From the NCBI GenBank assembly GCA_900316235.1, contig ONCC01000015.1:1-48546 (forward strand): 48,546 bases of DNA, given 5' to 3'. This stretch comes from an uncultured Bacteroidales bacterium (GTDB lineage Bacteria; Bacteroidota; Bacteroidia; Bacteroidales; P3). This document shows, in pieces, positions 3,852-38,561 of this stretch; positions within the stretch are counted from its first letter, which is position 1; each line of letters opens with the position of its first letter. The notes beneath the pieces are model-generated. The model made no database searches. It was given only the letters and a program-made list of their open reading frames with translations, and was not told where the DNA came from. The translations under genes were made by a program, and so were the position numbers.

Positions 3852-3870
3852 GTCGGTTTTTATTAGGGTT

Positions 3871-3907
3871 TTAAAAAGTGGGAAAGGCTCGTTGAAAAGC
3901 CTTTCCC
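3871..3907 (-). terminator. Terminator at end of the TonB receptor/surface protein/PorV-like operon
   Basis: A perfect 10-bp stem, GGGAAAGGCT (3880-3889) with AGCCTTTCCC (3898-3907). On the minus strand it is followed by ACTTTTTAAAA. It lies 28 bases past the stop of the PorV-like gene and before greA, which suits partial termination ahead of the downstream pair. Confidence 0.75.
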
Positions 3908-3935
3908 ATAATGGATTATGTGTCGTTGTTCAGCT

Positions 3936-5009
3936 CTAGAATCTGAAACTGGCTCCAATCGAGTGGGTACCCTTGAGGGGCGAAGCCGACTGGTAGGAGT
4001 AGTTGATGGTGAGACCAATGTCGTTACCGTTCTTCTTGGAGAAGGGGATATCGACCGAAGCACCGGCGCAGATGCCGTTGTTGGCAGTGGCCCTGTCGCT
4101 ATCGTCCCACATACCGGGCTGGAAGATGTAACCAGCACGGAGCTGAACAATCTTCAACAGGCTGTACTCGAGACCAAGGGTATAGTTGTCGCGGAGGAAA
4201 GCATTGGAGGTGAAGCTACCCGCCACGGTAAGGACCTGATCCCACTTATCGAAGAAGAAGTCGTAGGAAAGACCGATATTAAGGCAGGTGGGGAGCTCCA
4301 TCTCGGCGGCACGGGTTTGAACGGTGAAGTTATTTCCGCCAGTTCCAATCATCTGCAACGAGAGACCGGAACCGTCGAACTTCATCGAGGGACCCCAGTT
4401 CTTCAGGGAAATACCGAACTTGAGCTGATCGAACTCACCGGTGACATACTGGATACCGGCATCGATACCAAAACCGGAAGCCGACACGTTATCAGTACTC
4501 TCGGTAACGATTTTGATGACAGCACCGCCATGGATGCTACGGGTGAAACTATGGGCATAGGCCACATTGATGTTCATGTAGCTGGGCGTAAAGGTACCGT
4601 TGATGGGTTCAGGACTATCGAACTTGGTAACAGCGATATCGCCGAATCCCATAGCCATCACATAGGCGCCGAGGACACCAGCCTCAAAGACACGGATGCC
4701 AACACCAAAGGCGTTGATGGTGGCACCTCCCGTAAGGACACTGCGTCCACCATACAGCATCGTATTGGCATAGGCCACTTCGACATTGTTGACGAAAGCG
4801 AGACCAGCGACGTTGTTGAACATAGCATCGAGGCCACGGACATTGGCGATGTTGACACCACCCCAACCGGTGCTACGGGTCCAGGGATTGACAAGCAATT
4901 CGGAGGCACCCGCGGTTCCACGACGTTCATCGTTGCCAGCCTGGACTGACGGGGCGGAAAGCGCCGTGAGAATCACAACTACAGCAAATATACTTAATAT
5001 TTTTTTCAT
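3936..5009 (-). CDS. PorV/PorQ-family outer membrane beta-barrel protein
   Basis: A 357-residue protein with a signal peptide (1 to about 24, ending VQA-GND). The mature start TAGASELLVNP and the segment GWGGVNIANVRGLDAMFNNVAGLAF match the PorV/PorQ family pattern (ASELLxP...GMGGxxxAxxxGxxAxxxNPAGLA). The rest alternates in the way of a beta-barrel and ends in Phe (SFRF), a typical outer-membrane insertion signal. In T9SS, PorV binds the C-terminal domain of cargo and carries it from the SprA translocon to the attachment complex. The gene lies 32 bases downstream of a giant surface protein with such a domain, so it is probably a dedicated shuttle or anchor for it. Whether it is the main PorV or an extra paralogue cannot be told from this window. 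Confidence 0.82.
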   Translation of the reverse strand: MKKILSIFAVVVILTALSAPSVQAGNDERRGTAGASELLVNPWTRSTGWGGVNIANVRGLDAMFNNVAGLAFVNNVEVAYANTMLYGGRSVLTGGATINAFGVGIRVFEAGVLGAYVMAMGFGDIAVTKFDSPEPINGTFTPSYMNINVAYAHSFTRSIHGGAVIKIVTESTDNVSASGFGIDAGIQYVTGEFDQLKFGISLKNWGPSMKFDGSGLSLQMIGTGGNNFTVQTRAAEMELPTCLNIGLSYDFFFDKWDQVLTVAGSFTSNAFLRDNYTLGLEYSLLKIVQLRAGYIFQPGMWDDSDRATANNGICAGASVDIPFSKKNGNDIGLTINYSYQSASPLKGTHSIGASFRF

Positions 5010-5041
5010 CTCTGTAATAATTTAGGTGTTATCAAACTGTA

Positions 5042-8000
5042 TTAGAAACCGAAGGAGTTGAGGTCAACGGGACGCATGGTACCAAACCACTTGATGACAC
5101 GCTCGCCAATACCGGGAACGGTAACATGGATGAGGTACATACCGCCAGCGATGGGGATACCCGACTGGTTGTGGAGATCCCAGTCAACCGTGGTATTCTC
5201 GGCTCCAATGCTTGCATCGCGTGTGATTGCCGTGGGACCAAGGGTACGGACAAGGGTACCGTCCACAGTATAGATGCGGATAGTACAACCTTGTTTTACA
5301 CCGTTCTCTTCGCCAGTGGGCAAGTTGATGATGCGGACCTTGGTTTCGAGCTGGCTCGCGGTCTCATAAGAGGAATAACTGTAGTAGGGGTTCGGGACAA
5401 CATTGATTTGTCCGAGGAGGGAATCAATAAAATCTTGTCTGGCATTGCTGCGGGTGGCGAGGTTCTCGACAACAGCATCCTCAGCAGTGAGCACGAACTG
5501 ATAGGCAGGCATCTCATGGTTCTTGATAATCGTACCGGCATTGATTGAGGTGGTACGGTTGGGAGACATGTAGGTGCCATAGGGGGTGCGGACATCAATG
5601 TTGACCGTGACGTCGCAGGGGATATCCATCGGGTTGGTAAACTGATAGTGGCTGCTGACAAGAGGCATGTTGACCCAAGCGACAGAGGCATAGAGCATGG
5701 CCACAGAGTCGCGGACAAGCAGCTGGGTGGCTGTGGAGCCGGCATCCTGCTCGTCAGAGAGACCGTAATTAAGGAAGTAATTACCCGAAAGAACATATTG
5801 GGTCTTCATCAGTCGGTCGAGCGACGAAAGCATCTGCATAGCCCAACGACCAGCATCGTAAGAAGGCGTGGTGTAGTAGGTGGTCGTCAAAGCGCCAGTA
5901 CGCATGTTGCGGAACGGCTGAGTGGTGGCATTCATCACATAGATGTAGTGACGTCCGCCAATAACATAGTTCTGTGTACCCTCGGTCAAGGAGGCATCGG
6001 GGTTCCACATCATGTCTGCACCATTGTGTTGGACATAGCGGGAATCCTCACCGAACATGATGTTGAGGCGCTCGCCGGTAACAGTGTTGATTGCATAGCC
6101 GGGGAACCATCCCATACCATATTCAGAGATATAGGCGGGACTGTTGGGGTCAGCAAGGTCGGTGGCTGTGGCAGCGCCAGACAGCGTGTTGCCAAGTTTG
6201 TCAACAGACTTGTGGCGACGGGCGCTGAACCTGCGGGCATTGCCCTCGGACTGGGTAAAGTCATCACACATCTCGATAACAGGACAGCGGGTCCACTTGG
6301 AAGTGTCGGCGGTGAAGACAATCTGTACGCTGGGAAGATTATTCAGGGAGCTATAGTTGAGAGCCTTGTTAGCGGAATAAAGCATCAACTTTCTCTCAAG
6401 TTGGTTCCTATCAACACCATGATTGGCCAGCGAATCGTCGTTTGCCATATAATAGGTGAAGTTGAAACCAGGATGGAAGGGCTGGATGGAAGTCAAACCA
6501 TAGGGGCCCCAGAGACCATAGACAACCGACTCGAAGACCTGATCCTTATCCAAAGCTTCTTCGGACCATCTAGCCTCCAGACCGGAGCCTTTGACGACAG
6601 AGTGGAAGTAATCCTCATCAAGATAAGGCTCAGTGACACTGTATTTACCTGAAGTGCTGGTGAAAGTAGCTGCGGTACCTCCAGCATACTGCGCGCCAGA
6701 ACGAATCCAGTTATAGATGAAATAGGAATCGTTGTCGGCCACACCGCTAAGCCATTGTTTGTTCTCGTCGGCGAAAACCATAGAGGAGCCTAGAAGAGCG
6801 CCCTTTGTGGTGGTGTTACCTAAGAACAGACGAGAGGTGGTGCTAGAAACATACTGAATTTCGGAAGCAATAGGCTTGGGATTGACAAGCGTAACAGCAA
6901 GACCCATGTCGAGGAATAGTTGTTCGTTGAAACGACCAATCTCAAAGTCGGACCAAATGGTGTCGCGGTAGGTCCAATGGCCATCAACATAGGAAGAATC
7001 CACATGTCCACCACCCTCGCGGACAATACACCAGCGAGTGGAATTGGTGATTTCAGAGGTGTCCTTGTCAGCATTAATGAAGAGGATATTGAAGCGACCC
7101 TCATGGATCTTCAAGGGATCAATGACACGCACATTGACAGGACCATAGTTCTCCTCGTAGCTGGGATTGGCAGCAATACAGGGGTTGGTCATGACACTGC
7201 GATCAACACCCGCGGAGCTAATATTGACAGAGAAACTGCCGGGGGCTTTCATAAGAAGGGTGTCGATGGTGGGCTGAGTCAGACGGAGTACTGAACCACC
7301 GTTACCGTAACCGCCGAGACGTATGATTTGGGGGCACATGCCGAATTCGGACTGAGCAACCTTACCGCCGTCTTCAAAGACAGGATTGTGGGGGATAACG
7401 GTGATAGGTGTAATACTTCCGCCCTTCTCGTTCTTACGACCAGCAAGATAGGGTTCCTTTTGACCGTCAAGATAAGAGGGGTCGGTCTGGGAATATTCCT
7501 TGTAACGGTTGTGAGCGTAGGCGATGGCCACATAGTAGTATTCACGGTTGTTTACAAGGTTGGTGTTAGCACCGGTAGCAAACTGGTCCTTGGTGATGCG
7601 GAACACATGCTGAATACCAGTATTAGAGCCCGTAACCTTGACGGAACCGGTAAGAATACCTGTACGGGTGTCCTGCGTGTAATTAACCAGGGTTCCTATG
7701 CCTAAGCTGGGAGATTCATTGGGAGTACCGACAAGAATGGAGTCACCATTATCGTCCTTATCCCAAGCATAAACAAGCGAATCATAGTAGTTCTCTATAT
7801 CGCACTGGGCAACGAGAGCAGCCTTGGTGGGATCGTCAATGTCAGCGATGGAGCAATTGGCATCCTTCAACTGATAGATTTGATAACCCTCGAAGCGATA
7901 GTAGATATCGTAGGCATGGCTCTCACCACGCTCGTCGGTATACGAACTGGGAATGGAGGAGGAGGGCTCGATATAGGATTCGCCATAGTTGTTAGAGTTA

Positions 8001-22680: not shown

Positions 22681-23091
22681 ATGAATAAAGAGGAAAGAAT
22701 TGACTACTGGCTGAGCGTGGCCGACTACGACCTTGAGACGGCGGAGGCGATGTACTCCACCGGACGCTGGCTGTATGTGGCGTTCATGTGCCATCAGGCC
22801 ATCGAGAAGACGCTGAAGGCCTATTGGTGCGCCACGCAGGAGGATGAGCCTCCATACATCCACAGCCACAAGCGTCTCGCCGACGGCAGCGGCCTCTACG
22901 CCCAGATGAGCGAACAGCAGAAAGACTTCCTCAACACCATCACCACCTACAACATCGAGGCGCGTTACCCCGAAACCAAGGAGGCCCTCGCACGCAAGCT
23001 CGACAAGGATGCTTGCCGGTATATCATCGATGGAACCCAAACATTACAGACATGGATAAAAGAGCAGTTATCGGACGCGACGAAGCGATAG
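22681..23091 (+). CDS. HEPN-domain protein
   Basis: A 136-residue all-helical protein with the HEPN pattern IDYWLSVADYDLETAEAMYSTGRW...CHQAIEKTLKAYW near the start and FLNTITTYNIEARYPET in the second half. The RX4-6H motif of HEPN ribonucleases is not obvious: the Arg48 region reads RWLYVAFMCH, giving RX8H. It may therefore be one of the non-nuclease HEPN proteins or use a divergent site. The 3' end overlaps the nucleotidyltransferase gene by 40 bases, so the two are made together. Such pairs behave as toxin and antitoxin in HepT/MntA systems, where the transferase modifies the HEPN partner. Confidence 0.85.
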   Translation: MNKEERIDYWLSVADYDLETAEAMYSTGRWLYVAFMCHQAIEKTLKAYWCATQEDEPPYIHSHKRLADGSGLYAQMSEQQKDFLNTITTYNIEARYPETKEALARKLDKDACRYIIDGTQTLQTWIKEQLSDATKR

Positions 23092-23674: not shown

Positions 23675-26608
23675 TTATTCCAAGTTAACGCAATCAAAAG
23701 AAACCAATGAAGATTTGTCTTTAATTTTGTCTGGTAGTCCCGGACCTTGGACCTTCTCACCATTTTGCTCTTTCTCGTAGACTTTCCCATTCAGAACGAG
23801 CAGGAATTGCAGAATATCGGCATTACGGTTCATCCCATAGGCATCGCGCACAGCATTGTCGAGGTGTGCCTGAATTTCGGAGACGGGATTCTCTGGTGTG
23901 TCATCCATGAGGCGGTAGAGGTCTCTAAGGGTATAGTGGTGTTCATCCATTAGTTCATTACGTTTGTCGCGAAGGGCCTTCGACTGTTTCGCCACCTCCT
24001 CTATTTGCTTCTTTGTGGGATTCTGTGGCCACGGGAAACTATCGAAAACGGTGTCGGAAGTATATCTCCAGTCGCCCTTGAGCGTCGAGCATCTTGCCAC
24101 AAACCACTCCCAATGGATGGATGATTGCAGGATGCCGAACGAATAGTCGTCGTCAACAGGGAATGCCTGCAGAGCGTCGCCAGGATTGATGTCTTTGCCG
24201 ACGAACTCAAAGATAGGCCGTTTCGTTACGCGAGAGCATGCGATATACCTATTATGATCCTGTATGATGTCCATTAGTTCGTTGCGAGGGTATGATTGAG
24301 ACCACCAACGTTTATAGAAATTCTCATGGTGATGATTTAGTCGAGCTCTTGGGTTTTGTTTTTTTATATCTTCATTCTTCTTTATTTCTTCTTCAGCCTT
24401 TGCCTTAAACACGGGATAAACATTTTCGTGAAGGTAATCGTACAATTCTTTATACGAGGATACCTCAAATACATCATTTGCTTTTCGGAAATCTATAACA
24501 TAGCGTTGTGGCTGGGAGTGATATTTACCCAGTAGTTCATCTCCTATCAGGAATGGTCTAAGAACTCTTGTATTTCTTTTATCCTTTAGATATGGGGCCG
24601 CTTGATCTTTTGACAGAAGAAAGAATGTACTACCTTGGGTTTGGCCCTGGTAACACACCGCAGAGTTCTTGTTGCAGTTTAATGTCTTTGCTTTTGACAC
24701 ATCAAAAAGGCTGAGCGATGAGTTTATTTCATCAAATTCGTAATCTTCAAACGGAGAATCTTTGCTGTCGCCCTTTTGAATAGACAATACTTTTATACGC
24801 TTCTCTTCACCTTTCTTCCATGTGACAATGGAGACATAGACAGCAGCATCTCCAGACCACACTTCCGTTGATACTGAATCAAGAATAGTACCGCCTTTTT
24901 CGACAATGTAGTCAAGTCCTCCCATACGGGAGTAATTTTGGCGAATTGTATTTGTGCCCACCAATCCTGCATACTGTCCCTTTTTCATAAGATCGTGTGC
25001 CTTACGAAACCAGTATACGCAGAAGTCGGCCCGTCCAGGGACTTCAGGGTACGCCTGTCGGAGGCGAGCGACATAGGCAGCACCGAGTTCTTGGTTCATC
25101 TTGTTCTTCGACTGGTAAGGTGGGTTGCCGATTACCACATCAAAGGCCGGCCATTCATCGAAGAGTGCATCCCGAAGCAGAATGTTGTTGTCCAAATTGT
25201 CCAAAGGAAGGGCATCGTCCAAATCGAGGGCACTGCCATATTGTGAGATACGTCTTTGATAGGTAGCATTGCATATCTCTTTGGCAATCATCATGGTCAT
25301 CTTGGCCAGTTCGACAGCACGAGGTTGTACGTCGATGCCGTAAAAATTACTGGTTCTGATGACAGATTTAAAGTTGACTTTCACCTCTTTCCAACGCTGA
25401 CCAGGAACCCGCAGGTTGGAATTCCGGTGGAATTCGGGGAGAGAGAAAATCTTGTCAATAACTTGGCATTCCAGTTCTTTCATCTCACGATAGGCCACGA
25501 AGAGGAAGTTGCCACATCCGCAGGCGGGGTCGAGCACACGATATTCGCCCATCTGACGCCTTACATCATTCAACTCCTCAAGAGTCTTTGCTTTGTTTAT
25601 CTTTTCCTTCCAAGGCCGAATGATTGTGGGCGTGATTACACGAAGCATATCCACCTCACTGGTGAAATGGGCACCGAATTTATGACGTTCATCCGAGCGC
25701 ATTGTACCTTCGAACAAAGAACCAAAAATAGAAGGATTAACCTTAGTCCAATCTTTTACGGCAACCTGATGGAGTACACTCAAACTATATTCATCCAAGT
25801 CAACCGGGTCAATCTCCTTGAATAAACCTCCGTTGAAGTAGCGGATGTTTTTGAAGCGGCCAGCGCGTGCAGGTGTGAATGAGGCCATCTGACGGAAGAG
25901 GTTGCCGATTTCGTCATAAGCATTGCACTTTCCGTCGATGCAATCTTGTATTATCTGGGTGAAGAATCCTCGTGGGAGAAGATCAACATCTTCGGAGAAG
26001 AAGGCCAGTACACACTGCAGGATAAAGTGCTGGGCACGTTGCTTATCTTCATGCCTCTCTAACGTCAGGTATTGGTATAGTTCGCCCATCAGTTTGGCGG
26101 CATCGCGGGAGATTTCTTCTGTATTGTCTTGGAAAATCGGTGTTTTTCCCTCAAGGAACGACAGACAGGAAAAGCGTTCCGGGAGTTCTTCTAGCGTCAC
26201 CTCGTCCACCTTGTTGAGTTCGTCATAGATGATGAACTTGTCGAAATTGCACAATACAATATATCGGGGCTTTCTGCATCCTGGGCCGATGTCCTTCAAT
26301 GGGACGAGAGCCATCCAATAGTCACGGGCTTGAGGAAAGTGGGATTCGAGGTTTTTAATGCCCCTACTTTTCATCTCTATCAACACTCCATCTTTCCCTG
26401 CGGGACTCCAAATGCAGTCGATGAATTTGGTGGATTTAGTATCGGCTTCCTTCACCCGAAGTTCCATCTGCCCTTTTGCCTCATAAAGCCCCTGATGCCC
26501 AAAAGCGCGAAAAAGGCGGTCGCAAAAAGTCTGTGCTTGGCCTTTCTCATCGCCAGTCAGATTATCTTTCACAAAGGCGACGAACTCCTCAATATCCTGT
26601 TTATTCAT
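23675..26608 (-). CDS. Single-chain restriction-modification enzyme, Type IIL/MmeI-like
   Basis: A 977-residue protein. The N-terminal PD-(D/E)xK-like nuclease part has Asp64 (KFIDCIW) and IEMK at 77-80. A helical linker follows. The N6-adenine methyltransferase core has SAM motif I VLDPACGCGNFLF (about 356-368) and catalytic motif IV NPPYQ (about 492-496). The C-terminal half (DTVFDSFPWPQNP) is typical of target recognition domains in this class. One polypeptide would both methylate and cut, with specificity set by the C-terminal part. The start at 26608 (26617 is the alternative) was preferred over an in-frame ATG at 26716, which lies upstream of the -7 box at 26633-26640. No partner genes are present. 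Confidence 0.85.
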   Translation of the reverse strand: MNKQDIEEFVAFVKDNLTGDEKGQAQTFCDRLFRAFGHQGLYEAKGQMELRVKEADTKSTKFIDCIWSPAGKDGVLIEMKSRGIKNLESHFPQARDYWMALVPLKDIGPGCRKPRYIVLCNFDKFIIYDELNKVDEVTLEELPERFSCLSFLEGKTPIFQDNTEEISRDAAKLMGELYQYLTLERHEDKQRAQHFILQCVLAFFSEDVDLLPRGFFTQIIQDCIDGKCNAYDEIGNLFRQMASFTPARAGRFKNIRYFNGGLFKEIDPVDLDEYSLSVLHQVAVKDWTKVNPSIFGSLFEGTMRSDERHKFGAHFTSEVDMLRVITPTIIRPWKEKINKAKTLEELNDVRRQMGEYRVLDPACGCGNFLFVAYREMKELECQVIDKIFSLPEFHRNSNLRVPGQRWKEVKVNFKSVIRTSNFYGIDVQPRAVELAKMTMMIAKEICNATYQRRISQYGSALDLDDALPLDNLDNNILLRDALFDEWPAFDVVIGNPPYQSKNKMNQELGAAYVARLRQAYPEVPGRADFCVYWFRKAHDLMKKGQYAGLVGTNTIRQNYSRMGGLDYIVEKGGTILDSVSTEVWSGDAAVYVSIVTWKKGEEKRIKVLSIQKGDSKDSPFEDYEFDEINSSLSLFDVSKAKTLNCNKNSAVCYQGQTQGSTFFLLSKDQAAPYLKDKRNTRVLRPFLIGDELLGKYHSQPQRYVIDFRKANDVFEVSSYKELYDYLHENVYPVFKAKAEEEIKKNEDIKKQNPRARLNHHHENFYKRWWSQSYPRNELMDIIQDHNRYIACSRVTKRPIFEFVGKDINPGDALQAFPVDDDYSFGILQSSIHWEWFVARCSTLKGDWRYTSDTVFDSFPWPQNPTKKQIEEVAKQSKALRDKRNELMDEHHYTLRDLYRLMDDTPENPVSEIQAHLDNAVRDAYGMNRNADILQFLLVLNGKVYEKEQNGEKVQGPGLPDKIKDKSSLVSFDCVNLE

Positions 26609-26632
26609 ACAATGCATAGATAATTTTCGCTG

Positions 26633-26640
26633 CAAAAATA
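26633..26640 (-). promoter_or_regulatory. Probable -7 element of the restriction-modification gene
   Basis: TATTTTTG on the minus strand, 24 bases before the ATG at 26608. It limits where the protein can begin. No TTTG is seen at the -33 distance. Confidence 0.55.
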
Positions 26641-26822
26641 CAAAAAATATCCGACCCCACCGAATTATTATTAATCTACATGAATAAAAATACTGAAAAT
26701 AAACAAATTGTAGCAACTTTAACCATTAATCATTACCCTCCCCCACCATATTTCAAGAAAAATAGTGCCGACACAATAAAGAAGGCAGAAAAACGTTATA
26801 GGAAGAAAAACATTTTTGCAAT

Positions 26823-29285: not shown

Positions 29286-29861
29286 TCATAAAGTTCTCTG
29301 ACAGATGGACAGCCCTCCCTTTTTGCCGAGGACAAATAGTGTAGGCTCATCTGTTCCATGACACAGGTTGTCAATATACAACGGCTGGTTGAGTATAAAA
29401 CGGTCGCAATGAAAGGTGTCGCCCGCCTTGACCTTCGAGTTGCGAGCCTCCAAGACAATGAAATATCCATTCCCTTCATGTCGCAACCGCATCCTGCGGT
29501 TAGGCTCCCATCCTATTTCAAGCGTTTCTCCCACTTCCAACTGTTCAGCCGTCAACGTGGCGGAAAGCACACGGTGAGAGGTTTGGGCACTCTCCACCTG
29601 GCAGTAGTCGGCCACAAAGGTATGCCAGTCGGGATAGCCTACAAAGCGGGAAAGCACGTCGAGCGTCGACTCACGCACTGTGGTATAACCGTCGATATAT
29701 CCCCATAGTCGTTTCAAAGTGCTGACGCCCACAGCCTCTTTAAGACGTTCCTGCATCTGGTCGTGCAGCCGCTCGAAGTCGATACTTGTGAGGGGACGAA
29801 ACATGGCGGCCTCTTCTACCTGCTGTTTCAGCCTGTCCAAGTGCTTGTTGTCTACTTCCAT
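29286..29861 (-). CDS. Unknown protein with regulator-like N-terminus, 191 aa
   Basis: A 191-residue protein starting MEVDNKHLDRLKQQVEEAAM. The first ~100 residues are helical with VGVSTLKRLWGYIDGYTTVRESTLDVLSRFVGYPDWHTF. This pattern is frequent in unannotated Bacteroidetes proteins and resembles a helix-turn-helix domain of a regulator. The last ~80 residues are beta-rich (VGETLEIGWEPNRRMRLRHEGNGYF). The start was placed at 29861 because the divergent -7 box lies at 29870-29877; an in-frame ATG at 29978 would run through both promoters. It is divergent from the Ser/Thr kinase gene, so the two may be functionally linked. No enzymatic motif is seen. Confidence 0.7.
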   Translation of the reverse strand: MEVDNKHLDRLKQQVEEAAMFRPLTSIDFERLHDQMQERLKEAVGVSTLKRLWGYIDGYTTVRESTLDVLSRFVGYPDWHTFVADYCQVESAQTSHRVLSATLTAEQLEVGETLEIGWEPNRRMRLRHEGNGYFIVLEARNSKVKAGDTFHCDRFILNQPLYIDNLCHGTDEPTLFVLGKKGGLSICQRTL

Positions 29862-29869
29862 AACGACTG

Positions 29870-29915
29870 CAAAAATACAAAATAAATTCCAAATACATTT
29901 TTTTTCGTATTTTTG
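29870..29915. promoter_or_regulatory. Divergent -7 elements between regulator-like gene and kinase
   Basis: Minus: TATTTTTG (29870-29877), eight bases before the ATG at 29861. Plus: TATTTTTG (29908-29915), four bases before the ATG at 29920. Both leave almost no 5' leader, so both messages may be close to leaderless. No TTTG is seen at the -33 distance for either. Confidence 0.5.
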
Positions 29916-29919
29916 CCTC

Positions 29920-31272
29920 ATGGCAAACAGCGAACACCCATCTACTTCCGGCATACCCGACGCGCTGGATTTCAGCATGTCAGTTATTTTTTCACAGCAT
30001 GAGGAGATAGTTGCGCACGGTTATTGTGTGCTTTACCGTGCTCGTCGCTATGGGCGGTGGTTTGTGCTGAAAGGCTTGCAACCCGAACACCGGCACGACC
30101 CGCTCTACATGGCCATGCTGGAGAAGGAATTCAACATGCTGACGGCGCTCGACCACCCCAACATCGTCCATCTTTACAGCCATGAGGTGGATGCGGTGGC
30201 GGGGCCATGCATCGTGATGGAATACGTGGATGGGCGCACCCTCACCGACTTTTTGGAAGAGAAGCCCTCCCTGACGGCCCGCCGTCGTGTGACAATGCAG
30301 CTGCTCGATGCCATGAGCCACTACCATTCGCGCCAAATAGTACACCGAGACCTCAAACCCAGCAACATACTCATCACCCGCAACGGCGACAACGTGAAGC
30401 TTATCGACTTTGGACTGGCCGACGGCGACGACTATGCGGTACTGAAAGAGCCTGCCTATACCGAGGGTTATGCCGCCCCCGAGCAGAAGACACCGGGCGC
30501 TACCGTCGATTGCCGTACCGACCTCTACGCTTTCGGCGTGCTACTCCGCCTGATATTTCCCCACCGCTTCCGCTATATCGCCCACCGCTGCACCTGTACC
30601 TCGCCCGATGGCAGATACCCTTCGGCCGATGCCGTCAAACGGGCATTGCATCGGAGAGACCAGAGGGTTTGGCTTGGGTGGATAACTGCGGTTTTAATTA
30701 TCGCCATATGTACATTTCTTGCTTTCCCCAAGAAACATCCTCACCCCATTCCTCCCATTGAGACCACTCAGAATGAAGTGACAGATACTCCAGCCGGCCT
30801 CTTGATCGACAGTGGCGGTATGGACACAACACAAAAGACAGAGGCTAAAATCAACAAACATTATAGCGTATCCCTCGACAGAGAAAAAGCCGAGATGAAA
30901 CGCTATTCGGACAGTTTGACGTCCGATGTACGCCAACAAATGGACAACATAGTCGACAAGCAAATTGCCACCGCCCTGGTCGGCAAGGTCGAAATACAGT
31001 TGTCGATAAAAGTAATGGAGCAGATGTCTGGCATTAGGGCCCGTAATGAGACGCAGTGGGACAGTTGTTGGTATGAACTGCATGACATACAGGCGGATGC
31101 CACCAAGGTGATGAACACGGATATTGAGGCACGTCAATGGCCAGAAACCCCAGAGGAAAACACCGAGAAAGAGCTGGAGCGTCTTATCGCCGAGATGAAG
31201 CAGTTAAACAATAGGTTTCAAGCACTTTACCGCACCGTAATGCAACACCGTGGGGACCATTTTGTAAAATAA
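29920..31272 (+). CDS. Membrane-anchored Ser/Thr protein kinase
   Basis: A 450-residue protein. The kinase domain (about 25-245) has Lys51 (WFVLKG), Glu70, HRDLKPSN at 142-149, DFG at 163-165 and APE at 186-188, so all catalytic residues are present. The glycine loop is degenerate (AHGYCVLYRARR). One membrane helix at 251-269 separates it from a C-terminal region of ~180 residues with helical charged segments (EKAEMKRYSDSL, EELERLIAEMKQL-like). That region would face the periplasm and may sense a signal. The ATG at 29920 lies only four bases after a -7 box. It is followed by the small RNA candidate and the unusual multi-gene locus from 31670. Confidence 0.88.
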   Translation: MANSEHPSTSGIPDALDFSMSVIFSQHEEIVAHGYCVLYRARRYGRWFVLKGLQPEHRHDPLYMAMLEKEFNMLTALDHPNIVHLYSHEVDAVAGPCIVMEYVDGRTLTDFLEEKPSLTARRRVTMQLLDAMSHYHSRQIVHRDLKPSNILITRNGDNVKLIDFGLADGDDYAVLKEPAYTEGYAAPEQKTPGATVDCRTDLYAFGVLLRLIFPHRFRYIAHRCTCTSPDGRYPSADAVKRALHRRDQRVWLGWITAVLIIAICTFLAFPKKHPHPIPPIETTQNEVTDTPAGLLIDSGGMDTTQKTEAKINKHYSVSLDREKAEMKRYSDSLTSDVRQQMDNIVDKQIATALVGKVEIQLSIKVMEQMSGIRARNETQWDSCWYELHDIQADATKVMNTDIEARQWPETPEENTEKELERLIAEMKQLNNRFQALYRTVMQHRGDHFVK

Positions 31273-31669: not shown

Positions 31670-32035
31670 ATGGGACTTATCAACAACATCAAAGATGCCT
31701 TCAATAAGGCTGAGTTCACTGTTGCACCGAACAAGAAACTCAAAACCATCTCGGCCGACTTCAAGAAAAGCTTCGACCTCACGCTGGCTTTCTACAAGGG
31801 CGTGCAGCTTGCCGACCCCGAGATGACCCTCGCGGCGCTGAACAGCAAGACCTCCAAGGAGGTGAACACCAAGGCCGACGGCCTGAAGATCAAAGGCTCG
31901 ATGAAGGTGGGCGATGCCGAGAAGCTCTTCGACCAAAACTTCGGCGTCACCGTCCAGATCAAGGACAAGGAAGGCAAAGTCCTTGTACCGAACAATATCA
32001 CCATCGGCCAGGCCGCCAGAGGGGAATACAAGTAA
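31670..32035 (+). CDS. Small protein of unknown function, paralogue A of three
   Basis: A 121-residue protein with no signal peptide or membrane segment. From residue ~20 it aligns with the proteins at 34068 and 34456. Shared features are a K-L-K-x-(I/L)-x-x-x-F-x-x-x-F start, T-L-x-x-Y, an L-A-D-P-E-x-T-L-A-A-L segment also seen in paralogue C (FADDNATLASI), G-x-x-x-V-G followed by a charged helix, and (F/Y)G-x-x-V-Q ending with a T-I/L. It has ~15 extra N-terminal residues (MGLINNIKDAFNKAEF) that form an amphipathic helix and could bind a membrane or partner. The function is not known. It is the first gene of the locus that leads to the ion channel. Confidence 0.75.
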   Translation: MGLINNIKDAFNKAEFTVAPNKKLKTISADFKKSFDLTLAFYKGVQLADPEMTLAALNSKTSKEVNTKADGLKIKGSMKVGDAEKLFDQNFGVTVQIKDKEGKVLVPNNITIGQAARGEYK

Positions 32036-32067
32036 AGTTTAACGTTTAATGTTTAAAGTTTAGCGTT
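32036..32067. repeat. GTTTAA-type low-complexity repeat
   Basis: The 32-base gap holds four GTTTA-starting units in a row (AGTTTAACGTTTAATGTTTAAAGTTTAGCG pattern, positions 32036-32065), just before the next ATG. Such AT-rich units also occur around the TPM gene and may be a genome-wide intergenic repeat. Confidence 0.6.
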
Positions 32068-33048
32068 ATGGCTACTACAACCAAGAAGGCAACTCCTGCC
32101 CCCAAGACCACCGCAGCAAAGCCTGCCGCCAAGAAGACCACAACGGCCAAGACCACAGAAAAGAAAACCACCGCAACCAAACCGGTAGCGAATAAAACTA
32201 CCGCTGCAAAGCCTGCCGCGAAGAAAACCACGACAACGGCCAAACCGGCGGTAAAAGTATCGGAAACCACATTAACCGACAGTAAGAAGTTCTCACTCAA
32301 GGGTCTCTTCTCAAAAGGCGACACATTCAAAGACCCGTTTGAAAAAAACATGGTTAAGGTGTGTGCCGGCATGCAAAAAGGTGGTTTTGTATATCAGTCA
32401 TATTGTCTTGAACATCCTGACAACGATAAACGAAGAAAAAAAGAATGGATAGAACATTCTTATTTTCGAGACTTGACGGTAGAAAAAGAATTTATGATAT
32501 GCAAATACCATGTCACACAAAAACAGTGGAAGTCTGTGATGGGGGAAGGCTTTAATCCATCTCCTAAAGAGCATTTAGGTGATGACAACCCCGTTACTGA
32601 CTTCAGCGAAAAAGAATTAAAGGATTTTATTGCAAAACTCAATAAACTAACGGGGAAAAAATATCGACTTCCAACAGAAGATGAATGGATATGGGCAGCA
32701 AAAGGAGCAAATAAAGACAAAGATAGAGGCGGATGGGCTGGCTGCGACGAAGCAAAAGACTTGCCGAAATATGCTTGGTTCGACAAAAATAGTGATCAAA
32801 AATTACATCCTGTAGGTAAGAAAAAAAGCAATGAACTCGGCTTATACGATATGTGCGGAAATTGTCATGACGTATGTATTTGCACGGCAGAAAGAACATC
32901 GAGTAAAGGAACAGTTTTGAAAAAAGGAGAACTAACCGGTCGTGGAGGAGCTTATTGGGGTGCTTATTACAATTGCCAAATTAATTCTGGTTATTACTTA
33001 TTTAAACACTTTAGTTATAGCGGAATACGGTTGATTCTTGATGTTTGA
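32068..33048 (+). CDS. FGE-sulfatase-fold protein with histone-H1-like N-terminal tail
   Basis: A 326-residue protein. Residues 1-63 are almost only Ala, Lys, Thr and Pro in repeats such as AAKPAAKKTT, like histone H1 tails, and should be disordered and bind nucleic acid or acidic partners. Residues ~95-326 form an FGE-sulfatase (SUMF1/C-type-lectin-like) domain with FMICKYHVTQKQWKSVMG, YRLPTEDEWIWAAKG, YDMCGNCHDVC, GRGGAYW and a final GIRLILD. The usual Arg-rich and Cys pair residues of formylglycine-generating enzymes are missing after RGGAYW, so it is probably a binding domain and not an oxidase. The second half is clearly more AT-rich than the first, which suggests a domain joined from another source. 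Confidence 0.8.
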   Translation: MATTTKKATPAPKTTAAKPAAKKTTTAKTTEKKTTATKPVANKTTAAKPAAKKTTTTAKPAVKVSETTLTDSKKFSLKGLFSKGDTFKDPFEKNMVKVCAGMQKGGFVYQSYCLEHPDNDKRRKKEWIEHSYFRDLTVEKEFMICKYHVTQKQWKSVMGEGFNPSPKEHLGDDNPVTDFSEKELKDFIAKLNKLTGKKYRLPTEDEWIWAAKGANKDKDRGGWAGCDEAKDLPKYAWFDKNSDQKLHPVGKKKSNELGLYDMCGNCHDVCICTAERTSSKGTVLKKGELTGRGGAYWGAYYNCQINSGYYLFKHFSYSGIRLILDV

Positions 33049-33054
33049 AAAATA

Positions 33055-34044
33055 ATGAAAGAAATAGTTTTAGAAATTATGTGCTCCATTGCGGAGCATC
33101 TGAAAGTGTCAGTGGCGGTTGACAAACGCACCTACAATGACCAACGTGCACTTATCAACAGCATTTTCAGTGCCACATCAGATAGGGAGTACAACGTTGG
33201 CAGCATTATGCTCCGTCTGACGGTGATTGACTCGCTCTATGCCACTAATGCTGCTTATAGCTACTTCTCCATTGAGGAAATGGCACAACGCATCTACGAC
33301 ATGGGCAGCGAACAGGAGGCGACACGACAGTTCGCCAGTTATGCTCAAGGAAACAATGAGACTGCGGTCGATGCCCTTTTCGACGAACCTTTCGGTATTC
33401 GCAAAAATCTCGCCGAAGGTAGCAAGCAGGTCTCCCTGCTGTCGAAATATGCTTATTACTGCGTATTGCAGGAGTCTCAGAAATATCCTATGGGATTCCC
33501 TATCTACGACAGTCTTGCAAAGGAAATATATCCTAAGCTGTGGGCAAAATTGGACCTTGGAGTCAAATCCACCGAGGAAAAGGAGATGAAAGCATATGTC
33601 GCTGATCTTCGCAAAATTTGCAGCGCCCTCTTCGAGCGGGAGACCGATAGTTTCGGAATGCAACAGTTCGACCTGCTGGATGCCTACCTATGGCGCATGG
33701 GAAAGTTCTCTCACGGAAACCTTTCGCTGATGCTAGAGCGCACGGATTATGTTCGCTTCATTACCAACTTAGGATTGCAGGCCGAAGAACGAGGAAAGGA
33801 CGAGAATGGTCATACGGTATATGAGCCACTCCCTGAATACGCCAAACGAATGCGTTGTATCTACTGTGACAAACCGCTTACAGGCAAGAAGAAGGTTAAG
33901 ATAGCCGAAGACCCCAACACAGTGAATGTGGACGACTTGGTACTTTGTGAATTCGTGAGTGGTGAGAAACCCCCTTTCAACGACATACGCAATCAGAAAA
34001 CTCTAGAAGAAATGTATGTGCATTGGAAACAATATTATAAATAA
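33055..34044 (+). CDS. Protein of unknown function, 329 aa
   Basis: A 329-residue, mostly helical soluble protein starting six bases after the FGE-fold gene. Distinct segments are IDSLYATNAAYSYFSIEEMA (about 57-76), FDEPFGIRKNLAEGSKQVSLLSKYAYY (about 109-135) and MGFPIYDSLA (about 145-154). A C-terminal piece with CIYC and a later LVLC could be a small zinc site. I do not recognise the family and see no catalytic signature. Its position inside the locus, at tight spacing, suggests that it works with the FGE-fold protein and the small paralogues. Confidence 0.75.
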   Translation: MKEIVLEIMCSIAEHLKVSVAVDKRTYNDQRALINSIFSATSDREYNVGSIMLRLTVIDSLYATNAAYSYFSIEEMAQRIYDMGSEQEATRQFASYAQGNNETAVDALFDEPFGIRKNLAEGSKQVSLLSKYAYYCVLQESQKYPMGFPIYDSLAKEIYPKLWAKLDLGVKSTEEKEMKAYVADLRKICSALFERETDSFGMQQFDLLDAYLWRMGKFSHGNLSLMLERTDYVRFITNLGLQAEERGKDENGHTVYEPLPEYAKRMRCIYCDKPLTGKKKVKIAEDPNTVNVDDLVLCEFVSGEKPPFNDIRNQKTLEEMYVHWKQYYK

Positions 34045-34067
34045 TAAACCCACATAATAACTTAACT

Positions 34068-34415
34068 ATGGAAATCAAAGTTGATGGACGCCTTTTGGTG
34101 TCGACGCTCTGCGAGCGATTCAAAGAAGAATTCGGCGGCACGCTGCGCGTGTACCAGGGCAACAAACGCCTCACCGGCGCCGAAAAAGTTAGCGAGATTG
34201 CTACTAAGACTGGCAGCTACGAGTGCCGCGGAAGCAAGACCGTCGGCGGCTTCGAGAAGGACATGATGGAGAACTTTGGCCTGAAGGTCCAGGTGGCTTC
34301 GGTCGACGACTGGGTGCTCGCCCTCGATGAGATGACCCTCTCTAAACTGCCTGAAATTCCCAAGAACGCCAAGAAGGCCGACATGGATGCCCTCAAGGCC
34401 AAGTATGCCAAGTAA
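34068..34415 (+). CDS. Small protein of unknown function, paralogue B of three
   Basis: A 115-residue protein starting MEIKVDGRLLVSTLCERFKE. It aligns over ~95 residues with paralogue C at 34456: (K/F)xxDGRxxVxxLxExFxxxFGxTLRVY, then G-x-x-x-x-G-x-x-x-VG-x-FE, then FGLKVQVA and MTLSKL. After the shared part it carries its own charged tail PKNAKKADMDALKAKYAK. It is cytoplasmic by sequence. The fold looks like a small alpha/beta domain. The two copies are only 40 bases apart. Confidence 0.75.
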   Translation: MEIKVDGRLLVSTLCERFKEEFGGTLRVYQGNKRLTGAEKVSEIATKTGSYECRGSKTVGGFEKDMMENFGLKVQVASVDDWVLALDEMTLSKLPEIPKNAKKADMDALKAKYAK

Positions 34416-34455
34416 AAATTATCACTTTTTATTAACCCATTAAATCCAAATTATT

Positions 34456-34767
34456 ATGGCAGAATTCAAATTAGATGGCCGCATGAAGGTCAAAAGTCTG
34501 AAAGAGAACTTCAACAAGTGCTTTGGCGCCACGCTGCGCGTGTACACCACTCCGGCTTGCAAACAGTTTGCCGATGACAACGCCACCTTGGCCAGCATCC
34601 GTGCTGAGGGTGCCAAAGGCGGTGAGCTCACCGTGGGCGGCAATCTCCGCGTGGGCAACTTCGAAGACAAAATCAAAGAGATGTACGGCATCGGCGTGCA
34701 GGTGGCCGACAAGGCCAACAGCAAACTGGCCGACAACAGCGTCACCCTCGTCGCCGCTGGCAAGTAA
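34456..34767 (+). CDS. Small protein of unknown function, paralogue C of three
   Basis: A 103-residue protein starting MAEFKLDGRMKVKSLKENFN. It shares FGATLRVY, VGNFE and YGIGVQVA with paralogue B and the FADDNATLASI segment with paralogue A, so it links the two others. It ends SVTLVAAGK without a tail and may be close to the basic form of the domain. The function is unknown. An inverted repeat follows the gene at 34783-34814. Confidence 0.75.
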   Translation: MAEFKLDGRMKVKSLKENFNKCFGATLRVYTTPACKQFADDNATLASIRAEGAKGGELTVGGNLRVGNFEDKIKEMYGIGVQVADKANSKLADNSVTLVAAGK

Positions 34768-34782
34768 TTCTTTGCCAACCCC

Positions 34783-34814
34783 AATCCGACGGGTGGGAGA
34801 CTACCCGCCGGATT
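34783..34814 (+). other. Hairpin between paralogue C and coiled-coil gene
   Basis: AATCCG (34783-34788) and CGGGT (34790-34794) pair with ACCCG (34803-34807) and CGGATT (34809-34814), giving 11 pairs with one A-C mismatch. There is no T run after it. It is more likely an RNA processing or stability element than a terminator. Confidence 0.55.
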
Positions 34815-34835
34815 CAAATTCTAAACAATAAACCC

Positions 34836-35096
34836 ATGAGCGTAGAATATTATCGTAAACGCCTTATCGACCTAAGGTCGGATGTCGCCAAGGAGCGCGA
34901 GGCGAAGAAAAAAGACAATGAACGTTATGCAGGCTATGTGAAGAACGCCAGTTCACCCAGCAGCAAGGCCAGCTACCGCAAACAGAAAATCGACCATGCA
35001 GCTAGCCACGACCGCCGCATCGAGAGCCTGAAGCGCGAAATCGAGAGCGCCAAGGCGAGTCTTGCCCGTGAAAGAGAACGTGCCAAGAAGAAATAA
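34836..35096 (+). CDS. Short charged coiled-coil protein, 86 aa
   Basis: An 86-residue protein with long runs of Lys, Arg and Glu. It has two helical parts, YYRKRLIDLRSDVAKEREAK and DRRIESLKREIESAKASLAR, joined by a Ser-rich turn (NASSPSSKASYRK). This is a helical hairpin or coiled coil without a membrane segment. The stop overlaps the ATG of the ion channel gene by one base (TAATG), so it is translated together with the channel. It is inferred to be a cytoplasmic partner or adaptor of the channel. Confidence 0.75.
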   Translation: MSVEYYRKRLIDLRSDVAKEREAKKKDNERYAGYVKNASSPSSKASYRKQKIDHAASHDRRIESLKREIESAKASLARERERAKKK

Positions 35097-36820
35097 TGCA
35101 GAAGTTTAAGCAAGAGTTGGCTCGTGTCTTCGACGATAACCTACGCACTAAACAGTGGCAGAATATCGCCGACTGGATTATCATCGGTCTTATCCTCTTG
35201 AGTACAGTGGAGGTATTCCTTTCCACCTTCGAACCTGTCGTTGAACGATACGGTGCCTGGCTTAATATTATAGACTTGTTAACCACGGTGTTCTTTACCA
35301 TCGAGGTGACGCTGCGCATCTGGTGCGCTGATCTGATAGATCCAAAATACAAAGGCTTATGGGGAAGGGTGCGTTATTGCTTCTCGTTCTATGGCTTGAT
35401 AGACGTTCTCTCTACTTATACCTTCTACATCGCTTTCTTGCTACCAATTCCCTATGCACTTCTTAAGGCATTGAGAATCGCGCGCTTGATGCGCGTGTTC
35501 CGATACCTTAAGGCATTCCGTATCCTCTCGAAGGCTATAAGCAACAAGAGCCGTGAGTTGCTCGTCTCGCTCGAGTTCCTCGCCATTGTAACACTCATAC
35601 TCTCGTTTATTCTCTACTTTGTGGAGCACGAGGCACAACCCGAGGTATATGAGAACGGCTGGACGTCGGTCGTATGGGCGTTCGCCCAGTATATCGGCGA
35701 CCCTGGCGGATTTGCCGACATGCCGCCCGTGACCCTTGCAGGACAGATTATCGCCTGTCTGGTGGGCATTCTCGGCATAGCTATCTTTGCCGTACCAGCC
35801 GGATTGGTGGGTAGTTCGTTCAGCGACGTGATGGAAGAGGAGAAGGATGAACAGGAACTGAGAGACAACGCCGCAGCCATCAACGAGATGATGTTGCTGC
35901 GCAGCCTGCAACGCGAGGGTGTCTACTGGCCTGCTAAAAACATCAGTTTCGGTGACCTTACCCTACTGCTTCACCTAAGCGACGAGGAGATTGTGAAGTC
36001 GGTGGGAGCTTCAAGCAATTTGCGCATCAAGAACCTCGCTGCCGCCATTATGGAACGTGACAGGAAAGCCGATAGGGTTGTTGTCAACCAATTCCACATC
36101 AACACCGACTACGGCAGCCACGTGGAGCGCGGATCCAGCGTCACCATCGTCAACCCTATCGGGGTGGGTGACAACGGGCTGAGCTATTTCGACTGGCATC
36201 TGGCACAGTTGGGAGGTTTCAACTATGTGGCCAACGAGCGCTATTCTATGCAGCATGCCAACCGCGAACGGCGTTGTTCTTTCTACAGCGTCACCGATCA
36301 GAATCAAGGCCATCCCGCGCTGAATCAATTCCTGTCCGATACACTGGAAGGACGCGGCAAGGATGATTGGATTATTGTCGTGGTGGGTGAGCAACGAATC
36401 AAGGAGCGTACACATCTGCATTTCGAATTTGGAGGCGAGACGGGTGAACAGAGTTTCGACTTCGAGGGCGGCATAGCTCCCGACCGTGCCACACTGAGAC
36501 GACTCTTCGACGATATGCAACGCACCCTCGACGAGAAAGTCGGCCTTACGGTCGACGCTCACCAGGTGCAGCCCAAGCTGATGGACACCAATATTGCCCG
36601 CTGGCTGCAAGCACACACCGAAGCCAATGTGCTGCTGCTCTCGTTGTCGTACAAACTGATGGTATTCGACAATGAGGTGTATGCCGCCATCGTGAACATC
36701 GCCGAGGTACTCAATCGCAACCTCGAACACAATTGCCCAGTCGGCTTGCACAAGGAAGAGTATCTTGTCCGTCCCATCAACTCCCCCTATTGGAGAGGCC
36801 TCTACGGCGTAGAGCTATGA
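35096..36820 (+). CDS. Voltage-sensor-type ion channel with large unknown C-terminal domain
   Basis: A 574-residue protein. Membrane segments S1-S4 lie within 24-147. S4 has Arg at 127, 130, 133 and 136 every third position, the mark of a voltage sensor. S5 is at about 155-177, and the pore loop and S6 lie at about 190-243, with the hinge FAVPAGLVGS. The selectivity filter is not TVGYGD: the region reads FAQYIGDPGGFADMPPVT (196-213), longer and altered, so ion preference cannot be assigned. After S6 comes a coiled coil (EEEKDEQELRDNAAAINEMM) and then ~290 residues of unknown type, including a beta-rich part (HLHFEFGGETGEQSFDFEGG). The gene is coupled to the coiled-coil gene upstream. Confidence 0.85.
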   Translation: MQKFKQELARVFDDNLRTKQWQNIADWIIIGLILLSTVEVFLSTFEPVVERYGAWLNIIDLLTTVFFTIEVTLRIWCADLIDPKYKGLWGRVRYCFSFYGLIDVLSTYTFYIAFLLPIPYALLKALRIARLMRVFRYLKAFRILSKAISNKSRELLVSLEFLAIVTLILSFILYFVEHEAQPEVYENGWTSVVWAFAQYIGDPGGFADMPPVTLAGQIIACLVGILGIAIFAVPAGLVGSSFSDVMEEEKDEQELRDNAAAINEMMLLRSLQREGVYWPAKNISFGDLTLLLHLSDEEIVKSVGASSNLRIKNLAAAIMERDRKADRVVVNQFHINTDYGSHVERGSSVTIVNPIGVGDNGLSYFDWHLAQLGGFNYVANERYSMQHANRERRCSFYSVTDQNQGHPALNQFLSDTLEGRGKDDWIIVVVGEQRIKERTHLHFEFGGETGEQSFDFEGGIAPDRATLRRLFDDMQRTLDEKVGLTVDAHQVQPKLMDTNIARWLQAHTEANVLLLSLSYKLMVFDNEVYAAIVNIAEVLNRNLEHNCPVGLHKEEYLVRPINSPYWRGLYGVEL

Positions 36821-36865
36821 ATAATTTAGAACTATTGAACCTTTGAATTTTTAAATTCCTCAATT

Positions 36866-37159
36866 ATGGCAGCATTTCTTTGGATATTTCAGTTTATCAG
36901 CCCGATAGCGTTTGTTCTCGGGGGATTGTACCTGTTGGAGGACCCGTCGCCGCTGGCGATAACGCTGGGGTGCGTTGCTGCGGTAGTGGGCCTCATCATC
37001 GGCATCGCTGGCTGGGCGGAGACAGTGCCACCACGCTGGTTCTGGGTAAAGAGCAGCACCGAACTGGCCGGCAGCCGCATCATGACGGCCATCGGCTACG
37101 CCATCCAGTTCTTCTTCCTCCCTCCCTTCATCATCGGTCTGATAGAATACTTCGGGTGA
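36866..37159 (+). CDS. Small multi-pass membrane protein, 97 aa
   Basis: A 97-residue protein with three predicted membrane helices (about 4-23, 30-50 and 71-94) and a short loop with ETVPPRWFWVKSS. I do not recognise the family. It follows the ion channel by 45 bases on the same strand, so it may be a small accessory subunit of the channel. No charged catalytic residues lie in the membrane parts. Confidence 0.7.
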   Translation: MAAFLWIFQFISPIAFVLGGLYLLEDPSPLAITLGCVAAVVGLIIGIAGWAETVPPRWFWVKSSTELAGSRIMTAIGYAIQFFFLPPFIIGLIEYFG

Positions 37160-37505: not shown

Positions 37506-38561
37506 ATGAGCCCTTTCAAGTTTGGCACAATCGTAGATGGCGATTTCTTTACCGACAGAGTGGCAGAAACAGCCCTTTTGAGTCAGAAATTAGACAGCGA
37601 AAACCATATCGTACTTATCAGTCCACGACGTTTCGGAAAAAGTAGTTTGGTCTACAAGGTGCTTTCCGGCATCGACCGTCCTCAAATCCAAATAGATTTA
37701 CAATACTCGTTGAGCGTTGAGGATTTCGCTGCACAGTTGGTGAAGTCTGTTTTCAAGATATTCCCATTGGAAAAAGTACGTCATGCAATGACCCATTTCC
37801 GAATAGCTCCCATTCTCTCCACAAATGCTGTTACAGGCGCAATGGAGGTCAGCTTCCAGCCGCTGGCCAATAGCGGGGTTCTTCTGGAGGATGCAATGGC
37901 ATTGGTGGGGAAAGTAACACAGCCCAGCCGACGCATGATAGTGGTGCTTGACGAATTCCAAGAGGTGGTCAAAATCAAGAAAGGATTAGACCGACAACTG
38001 AGGTCGTTAATGCAAAAACAAGAGAATCTAAACTATATTCTGATGGGCAGTCAAGAGTCGATGATGGAAGCTATCTTCGAGAAAAAGACCTCCCCATTTT
38101 ATCATTTTGGTCAGATGATACGGCTACCCAAGATACCCTATGATGATTTCCACGCTTATATCGTTGACCGTATGCCGAAAGCGAGTTCCGGTGTAGCCAG
38201 TGAAATTCTACACTTTACCTCATGCCACCCCTACTACACACAACAACTCGCCTCACAGGTATGGGATATGTTCACGTATCAAGGTTGCAAGGAAGACGTG
38301 GTTTCGAGGGCTGTCGAAGCGTTAATAACGATGCACGATTTAGATTATGAACGACTATGGCAAAACCTAAACCGCACCGACCGCTTCACCCTACGACAAT
38401 TGGCAGAGATGAAGCAACCCATGCAGAATCGGAGCCAGGCTGCCAGCACTTCTTATAGTTCACTGCAGCGTCTTATAAAGGCAGGTTTTATCATCCGAAC
38501 ACCGCACTATGAGATAGAAGACCCATTCTTTCACCGTTGGATACTGAAAAATATAGTATAG
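37506..38561 (+). CDS. AAA-type ATPase with C-terminal winged helix (archaeal-ATPase-like)
   Basis: A 351-residue protein. It has Walker A SPRRFGKSS (39-47), a variant with Pro-Arg-Arg typical of this Bacteroidetes and archaeal ATPase group. Walker B is MIVVLDEFQEV (about 139-149), followed by a sensor segment LNYILMGSQ. Residues ~290-350 look like a winged-helix domain (FTLRQLAEM, SYSSLQRLIKAGFII, ending IEDPFFHRWIL). The group belongs to the STAND/MNS-type P-loop ATPases, many of unknown function and some linked to defence or mobile elements. It has its own promoter with a palindrome and lies 21 bases upstream of the helicase gene. Confidence 0.88.
   Translation: MSPFKFGTIVDGDFFTDRVAETALLSQKLDSENHIVLISPRRFGKSSLVYKVLSGIDRPQIQIDLQYSLSVEDFAAQLVKSVFKIFPLEKVRHAMTHFRIAPILSTNAVTGAMEVSFQPLANSGVLLEDAMALVGKVTQPSRRMIVVLDEFQEVVKIKKGLDRQLRSLMQKQENLNYILMGSQESMMEAIFEKKTSPFYHFGQMIRLPKIPYDDFHAYIVDRMPKASSGVASEILHFTSCHPYYTQQLASQVWDMFTYQGCKEDVVSRAVEALITMHDLDYERLWQNLNRTDRFTLRQLAEMKQPMQNRSQAASTSYSSLQRLIKAGFIIRTPHYEIEDPFFHRWILKNIV

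Follow-up and report, generated by a model that had tools for sequence, protein, structure and literature searches.

A small duplicated-domain protein family linked to a charged partner protein and voltage-sensor channels in a variable chromosomal cassette of Bacteroidales

The window analyzed here is a stretch of 48,546 nucleotides from an uncultured Bacteroidales bacterium (assembly GCA_900316235.1, contig ONCC01000015.1), in which we studied a group of eight genes at positions 31670-37159 (Table 1). These genes encode three small proteins of one duplicated-domain family (P1a, P2b, and P3c), an FGE-fold protein, a protein of 329 amino acids (aa) denoted U329, a highly charged protein that is likely a coiled coil (CC86), a voltage-sensor ion channel (CHAN), and a small membrane protein (TM97). 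The locus is a variable chromosomal cassette, hereinafter the island, that is carried by many gut and rumen Bacteroidales. All eight open reading frames (ORFs) were confirmed on the plus strand in the ORF list of the window, with successive gaps from P1a to TM97 of 32, 6, 23, 40, 68, -1, and 45 bases, in agreement with the one-strand locus with small gaps described in the original prediction, which was made from the sequence without database searches. The FGE-fold protein and the ion channel named there were also confirmed by matches to PF03781 and PF00520, respectively; P1a, P2b, P3c, U329, CC86, and TM97 gave only weak rows (best E 0.032) in Pfam, NCBIfam, and PADLOC. Two upstream genes that the original prediction omitted recur with the unit, namely, a divergent gene for a 230-aa protein and a serine/threonine kinase gene, the ORF of which is open from position 29719, has its likely ATG start at 29920, and ends 397 bases before P1a. 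The search for known structured RNAs returned 0 matches at the gathering threshold.

Table 1. Genes of the island and its surroundings in the window
Feature	Position	Strand	Remarks
HEPN gene	22681..23088	+	apart from the island
MmeI-type restriction-modification gene	23675..26713	-	apart from the island
230-aa gene	29286..29978	-	divergent, just upstream; kinship to a ~200-aa family read from its sequence; no Pfam family
Ser/Thr kinase	29920..31272	+	PF00069, E 7.9e-32; C-terminal membrane segment as judged from the sequence
P1a, first paralogue class	31670..32035	+	N-terminal MGLINNIKDAF segment
FGE-fold (FGS, lectin-like) protein (FGE)	32068..33048	+	PF03781, E 3.9e-19; Lys/Ala/Thr-rich N-terminal tail
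U329, 329 aa, variable cargo	33055..34044	+	no family match
P2b, second paralogue class	34068..34415	+	homology to P1a and P3c
P3c, third paralogue class	34456..34767	+	predicted duplicated beta-alpha-beta fold
CC86, highly charged, 86 aa, likely coiled coil	34836..35096	+	1-base overlap with the channel start; coiled coil as judged from the sequence
CHAN, six-transmembrane voltage-sensor channel with a C-terminal domain	35096..36820	+	PF00520, E 2.3e-24
TM97, 97-aa small membrane protein	36866..37159	+	also at the site without paralogues
AAA ATPase gene	37506..38561	+	flanked by the island and the helicase gene; PDC-S01 matched weakly in PADLOC (E 1.8e-5)

The three small proteins are homologous and internally duplicated, and belong to three old classes of one uncatalogued family. 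In alignment, the other two show 40% and 33% identity to P2b, and the genome search with P2b retrieved them at E 5.5e-8 and 1.3e-4, with no further match at E 0.001 in the 2.43-Mb assembly. The shared motif noticed originally, F-x3-F(G)-x-TL-x-x-Y followed by VG-x-(F/A)E and FG-x-x-VQ, corresponds to 11 positions that are invariant in all three proteins (F18, F22, T25, L26, Y29, V59, G60, E63, G71, V74, and Q75). The family comprises 2584 clusters in the protein database, with all named members annotated as hypothetical or uncharacterized, and has no Pfam or NCBIfam model, so that its designation as a new domain family stands. The alignment, the genome search, the internal duplication, the family size, and the tree together rule out chance similarity, and recent tandem duplication is ruled out by the age of the classes in the tree. 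This tree was built from 50 representatives of 146 proteins; the branching order of the classes is unsure because, as a warning of the tree tool indicates, P1a and P2b join by long branches. Of 81 loci, 60 contain at least two small-domain ORFs, with a maximum of 5, and the domain occurs either alone or at the head of longer proteins. Five loci (L044, L045, L046, L062, and L068) encode a 432-437-aa fusion of the paralogue domain with an RTALGI domain, a transmembrane segment, and an OmpA domain; longer proteins with the paralogue domain are encoded also in L017 (with a weak DUF533 row, E 9.4e-5), L018, and L020, and in L021 (2105-2851), the paralogue domain is placed after an RTALGI-type domain.

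P3c has no significant match among PDB sequences, and its predicted fold is a duplicated beta-alpha-beta. The hydrophobic moment at the start of P1a (0.58) is suggestive of an amphipathic helix. The weak fold resemblance of the modeled small domain to ubiquitin-like beta-grasp proteins raises the alternative that these proteins are modifiers that are conjugated or bind like ubiquitin. We consider this highly improbable: the small domain is internally duplicated, and the C-terminal end is GK or GR, in some cases followed by one more residue, in 30 of 30 rows of the respective alignment (A2), with no Gly-Gly; another alignment (A4) omits 2 of 32 representatives. Distant single relatives (~123-136 aa) were detected in other orders of the phylum (L113, 9399-9776; L114, 8911-9282; L115, 9395-9805; L116, 9541-9912), with no CC86 or channel relative seen within these 19-kb stretches.

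The scan of GTDB species genomes yielded 137 relatives of P3c, from which 80 loci (L025-L104) were kept; all are from Bacteroidota, mostly Bacteroidales or its families, with cultured carriers such as Porphyromonas uenonis and Bacteroides caecigallinarum. These loci were chosen by a P3c match, and thus, only the remaining genes test linkage. CC86 was found in 65 of the 80 loci, P1a in 54 and P2b in 9 (both at E 1e-30), and a channel with the same DPG-type pore as in the window in 48. The other recurrent genes encode OmpA-type proteins (47 loci), kinases (36), pyroglutamyl-peptidase of family C15 (29), TM97 (28), TerB-like proteins (19), KAP NTPases (16), DUF4230 proteins (14), and U329 (10); the ~200-aa family to which the 230-aa protein belongs is represented in 37 loci, often divergently from the kinase. 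Among the 36 loci flanked by 8 kb or more on each side, 34 contain CC86, 29 any channel, 27 P1a, 25 a DPG-type channel, and 21 a kinase; the paralogues thus travel with CC86 and the channel, which is what the original prediction of a multi-gene unit implied. Wherever found, the CC86, channel, TM97, C15, TerB, KAP, DUF4230, and U329 genes lie on the P3c strand, as do 29 of the 36 kinase matches, and the paralogue genes share the strand with the channel and CC86. Loci marked by the family reach ~20 genes (L045).

A sample of 61 genomes, made up of the source genome and 60 relatives, contained P3c in 10 and CC86 in 9, with 8 in common (p 1.3e-7). In the ninth CC86 genome (G035), a partial P2b adjoins CC86; the paralogue genomes lacking CC86 are G001, where the match is at a contig end, and G052, where the contig is 5.5 kb long. 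U329 was detected in 5 of the 61 genomes. Comparison with the sister species G023 gave ratios of nonsynonymous to synonymous substitutions (dN/dS) of 0.039 for P1a, 0.025 for P2b, 0.064 for P3c, 0.043 for CC86, 0.093 for the channel, 0.168 for TM97, and 0.188 for the flanking helicase gene, with the higher values being rough because dS is 0.46-1.56. The possibility that the genes of the locus are unrelated and adjoin by chance in a variable region would fit the scarcity of the FGE-fold core (1 of the 80 other loci, L029, at E 1e-5) and of U329; nevertheless, its likelihood is negligible given the association of CC86, the paralogues, and the channel across Bacteroidales families, the fixed strand, and the low dN/dS. 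Chance is refuted for P1a, P3c, CC86, and the channel and could apply only to the cargo genes; the FGE-fold and U329 genes are variable cargo rather than core components.

The window channel consists of an ion-transport part (residues ~1-260) with the pore signature YIGDPGxxAxxP and a C-terminal domain (residues 303-546); its best match is to KCNQ channels (KCNQ3, E 7.9e-19). As in KCNQ/Kv potassium channels, there is an ion transport domain with a charged S4, in which four arginines (R127, R130, R133, and R136) are invariant in all 36 window-type channels of 530-600 aa (alignment A3, 36 of 37 representatives of 46 members). Unlike in those channels, the selectivity filter TxGYGD is present in 0 of the 36 sequences, its place being taken by DPGxxAxxP, and there is an amidohydrolase-like tail. 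The fold predicted for this tail is that of N-formylglutamate amidohydrolases and poly-gamma-glutamate hydrolases, from which it differs by its fusion to a channel and an identity of only 9-15% (to 2odf, 2q7s, 5onj, and 3a9l), and a profile search of the PDB did not retrieve these enzymes. With regard to zinc ligands, three tail residues are conserved (E381 in 35, H442 in 34, and D463 in 35 of the 36 sequences). The modeled tail could be a ligand-binding or gating domain. Both the DPG channel type and the small-domain family are new to the libraries used.

The second channel type, with a TxEGW or TGDAW-like pore, was identified in 15 of the 80 loci (14 by pattern and L066 by eye), in 8 together with the DPG type and in 7 alone. 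In six loci, it occupies the slot after CC86, starting 3 bases downstream of CC86 in L028 and L030 and following as the next gene at 280-391 bases in L031, L033, L064, and L067. Of the 15, the L030 channel was searched against solved structures, where it resembles sodium and calcium channels, with a T-type calcium channel on top (E 2.4e-24), so that the Nav/Cav-like type is represented in the related loci and not in the window; in a single comparison, its similarity to the window channel was weak (E 5e-5). Given that two channel types follow CC86, it is an ion channel, rather than one particular channel, that belongs in this position. Several channel variants (P0270, P0271, P0290, and P0296) have a lipoprotein-like start and no voltage sensor, together with the same DPG pore signature and tail. 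The C15 gene often directly precedes the channel, and the channel tail resembles the fold of a glutamate-cleaving enzyme other than C15; with loci grouped by channel-tail type, C15 is present in 2 of 7 window-type loci versus 26 of 49 others, which is not conclusive for a link between C15 and the tail.

Most of the kinases, judging by their motifs, are probably active because an HxDxKPxN-type loop is kept in 33 and DFG in 35 of 37 matches, the window kinase included. From its position, the 230-aa gene is a possible regulator. The Lys/Ala/Thr-rich tail that heads the FGE-fold protein of the window is found at the start of 22 island proteins, namely, the FGE-fold proteins of the window and L029 and 20 paralogue-matching proteins. 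The cargo of other loci includes OmpA-type proteins with an N-terminal domain and one transmembrane segment, a 431-aa family with a lipoprotein-like start (25 of 80 loci), an outer-membrane-type family (PF13557, 13 loci), KAP NTPases similar to QatA and PifA (E 1.8e-24 and 1.3e-33), and a PD-(D/E)XK nuclease family. The OmpA-type, lipoprotein-like, and PF13557 proteins, together with the TerB-like and DUF4230 proteins and the two channel types, are what would be expected of a response to envelope or ion stress, in which wall-binding OmpA anchors would act with TerB, the channels, and the outer-membrane and lipoprotein members as sensors of envelope damage or ion imbalance and the kinase would adjust the reaction. 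Among these members, the window locus possesses only the kinase and a channel, and because the P3c match is missing from 51 of the 61 sampled genomes, this is not a core stress system; on balance, we find this explanation unlikely.

The unit in the window is flanked by NUDIX and UvrD-like genes, which, as read from coordinates, share a contig and keep their order and strand in 13 of 37 same-genus genomes. Between these flanks, three genomes (G000, G008, and G023) carry the island, five (G002, G010, G015, G022, and G025) have less than 1 kb, and five (G036, G007, G009, G012, and G004) have other content. At the site in G036, TM97 and a kinase accompany a radical-SAM/SPASM protein and a relative of U329, whereas paralogue, CC86, and channel are all absent. 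In G007 and G009, the kinase and TM97 are joined by the 200-aa gene and by a protein whose start matches that of the radical-SAM protein of G036. The 200-aa gene and the kinase are found in G012, and both are missing from G004. The kinase and TM97, which occur without small domains in sister species, thus serve several cassettes of the site. The radical-SAM/SPASM protein is encoded in L117 at 5032-6594 (G036; PF04055, E 1.6e-17), and its relatives by common start are in L118 at 3680-5299 (G009) and L119 at 3649-5214 (G007); together with a 204-aa protein, they stand beside the kinase in place of the small-domain genes in L117-L119. The AAA ATPase gene downstream of the island is kept at the site in G036 too. 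Of 395 genomes of the phylum, 6 matched at E 1e-5; besides the source genome, these were one from another class (6e-33) and four with weak matches. No family match was found in 50,697 phage records and 72,556 plasmid records, and 21 pattern stretches in viral contigs included 0 true relatives; on this ground, an identity as phage or plasmid genes was rejected. Composition is not informative in this respect, with a GC content of 0.49 in the island and 0.52 in the rest of the window.

The accessory, variable site with its empty, island, and other-cassette states also evokes an anti-phage or abortive-infection device, in which the FGE-fold protein and other cargo would sense the invader and the channel, nucleases, or NTPases would stop the cell. 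The KAP NTPases, the PD-(D/E)XK nuclease, and an OmpA protein that weakly matches ZorB (E 2.2e-6) in other loci are compatible with such a role, and FGS domains have been proposed as invader sensors in PMC8195603. Against it, no excess of known defense genes was found in the island flanks, where 140 proteins from 50 loci matched 15 PADLOC families compared with 68 for 130 control proteins (E 1e-20). This test counts families, not proteins; it covered 140 of 259 flank candidates and 130 of the 182 for the controls, which were drawn from 20 regions surrounding UvrD-like helicase genes, a choice that inflates GajB-type matches. Furthermore, PADLOC returned nothing for P1a, FGE, U329, P2b, P3c, and TM97 and only E 0.049 for CC86 and 0.033 for the channel (the kinase hits numerous kinase models, at best with E 4e-40), and the phage, plasmid, and viral collections contained no relatives. 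The restriction enzyme and HEPN genes cited in support of an immune device by the original prediction are real, but end ~5 and 8.6 kb before position 31670, with LemA, TPM, and NUDIX genes in between. Altogether, immune use of the cassette is plausible, if unproven, and the proposed device was not established; as an explanation of the locus, we rate it as somewhat unlikely.

Pfam contains models of the effector-associated domains (EADs), which are adaptors, and the small proteins match none of them; only P1a gave rows, for DUF2804 and MKT1_C, at E ~0.1. The organization of the loci nevertheless resembles that of EAD and ternary conflict systems, which are described in PMC7159879 and PMC8195603. 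These, too, use a small adaptor domain that is repeated within a locus, either free-standing or fused to different partners, and the partners in common comprise OmpA-type wall-binding domains, KAP NTPases, kinases, and FGS domains; there, an equivalent layout connects effectors with sensors, for example, FGS domains. In the loci described here, by contrast, the large partner seen most often is a voltage-sensor channel. MoxR and vWA genes, the mark of ternary systems, were present in 8 of 8 genomes and on none of the island contigs, some of which are short. Another resemblance is to Zorya (PMC11890865), the ZorB component of which, a wall-anchored protein of the inner membrane, has a counterpart in the OmpA-type proteins with one transmembrane segment in 47 of the 80 related loci; in contrast to ZorB, the cytoplasmic part of these proteins is an RTALGI or paralogue domain, and none is encoded in the window locus. 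Among open PMC papers, judged by title and the beginning of the abstract, none was found to describe the locus, and publication outside this collection is possible.

A small domain that is present in multiple copies, some of them fused to other regions, and whose partners change has the anatomy of an adaptor. We therefore put forward, as a proposal evenly balanced between acceptance and doubt, that the small duplicated-domain proteins are cytoplasmic adaptors that couple interchangeable sensors and effectors, via CC86, to an ion channel, with the kinase probably in control. P1a, P2b, and P3c would hold the cargo together through one another and CC86, and CC86 would connect the small domains to whichever channel the locus encodes. 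The cargo (in the window, the FGE-fold protein and U329) or the channel tail would sense a signal that might be relayed by assembly or phosphorylation, whereupon the kinase or the cargo would set the state of the channel, and the outcome would be ion flux across the inner membrane. The best argument for this output is that two channel types share the slot after CC86. The more elaborate version, a signalosome of a kind new to bacteria in which the duplicated adaptor domain, in its three ancient classes, wires wall-anchored OmpA proteins and interchangeable sensors and effectors through CC86 onto one of two unrelated voltage-sensor channels and converts signals into ion flux, is possible rather than probable; the same tentativeness extends to its details, that one channel combines an unrecorded DPGxxAxxP pore with an amidohydrolase-like ligand tail and that the input consists of intracellular or envelope signals.

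A number of observations weigh against the adaptor proposal. The P3c counts in the 80 loci are true by construction; among the 36 well-flanked loci, both channel types are missing from 7 and a kinase match from 15; the kinase is on the opposite strand in 7 of the 36 kinase matches of other loci; and G034, a genome 68% complete, encodes a channel relative without a paralogue match. In addition, the tie of the kinase, TM97, and U329 to the small domains is loose because the kinase, TM97, and a U329 relative occur without them in G036, as do the kinase and TM97 in G007 and G009. The original idea of the paralogues and the coiled coil as cytoplasmic modules of the channel thus survives in part, with the new family and its linkage to CC86 and the channel upheld and the FGE-fold and U329 proteins relegated to variable cargo.

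If the small proteins are indeed adaptors, they would open many hypothetical genes to study at the same time and would add an adaptor family beside the EADs. Bacterial channels with voltage sensing would then be coupled to a modular cytoplasmic scaffold.

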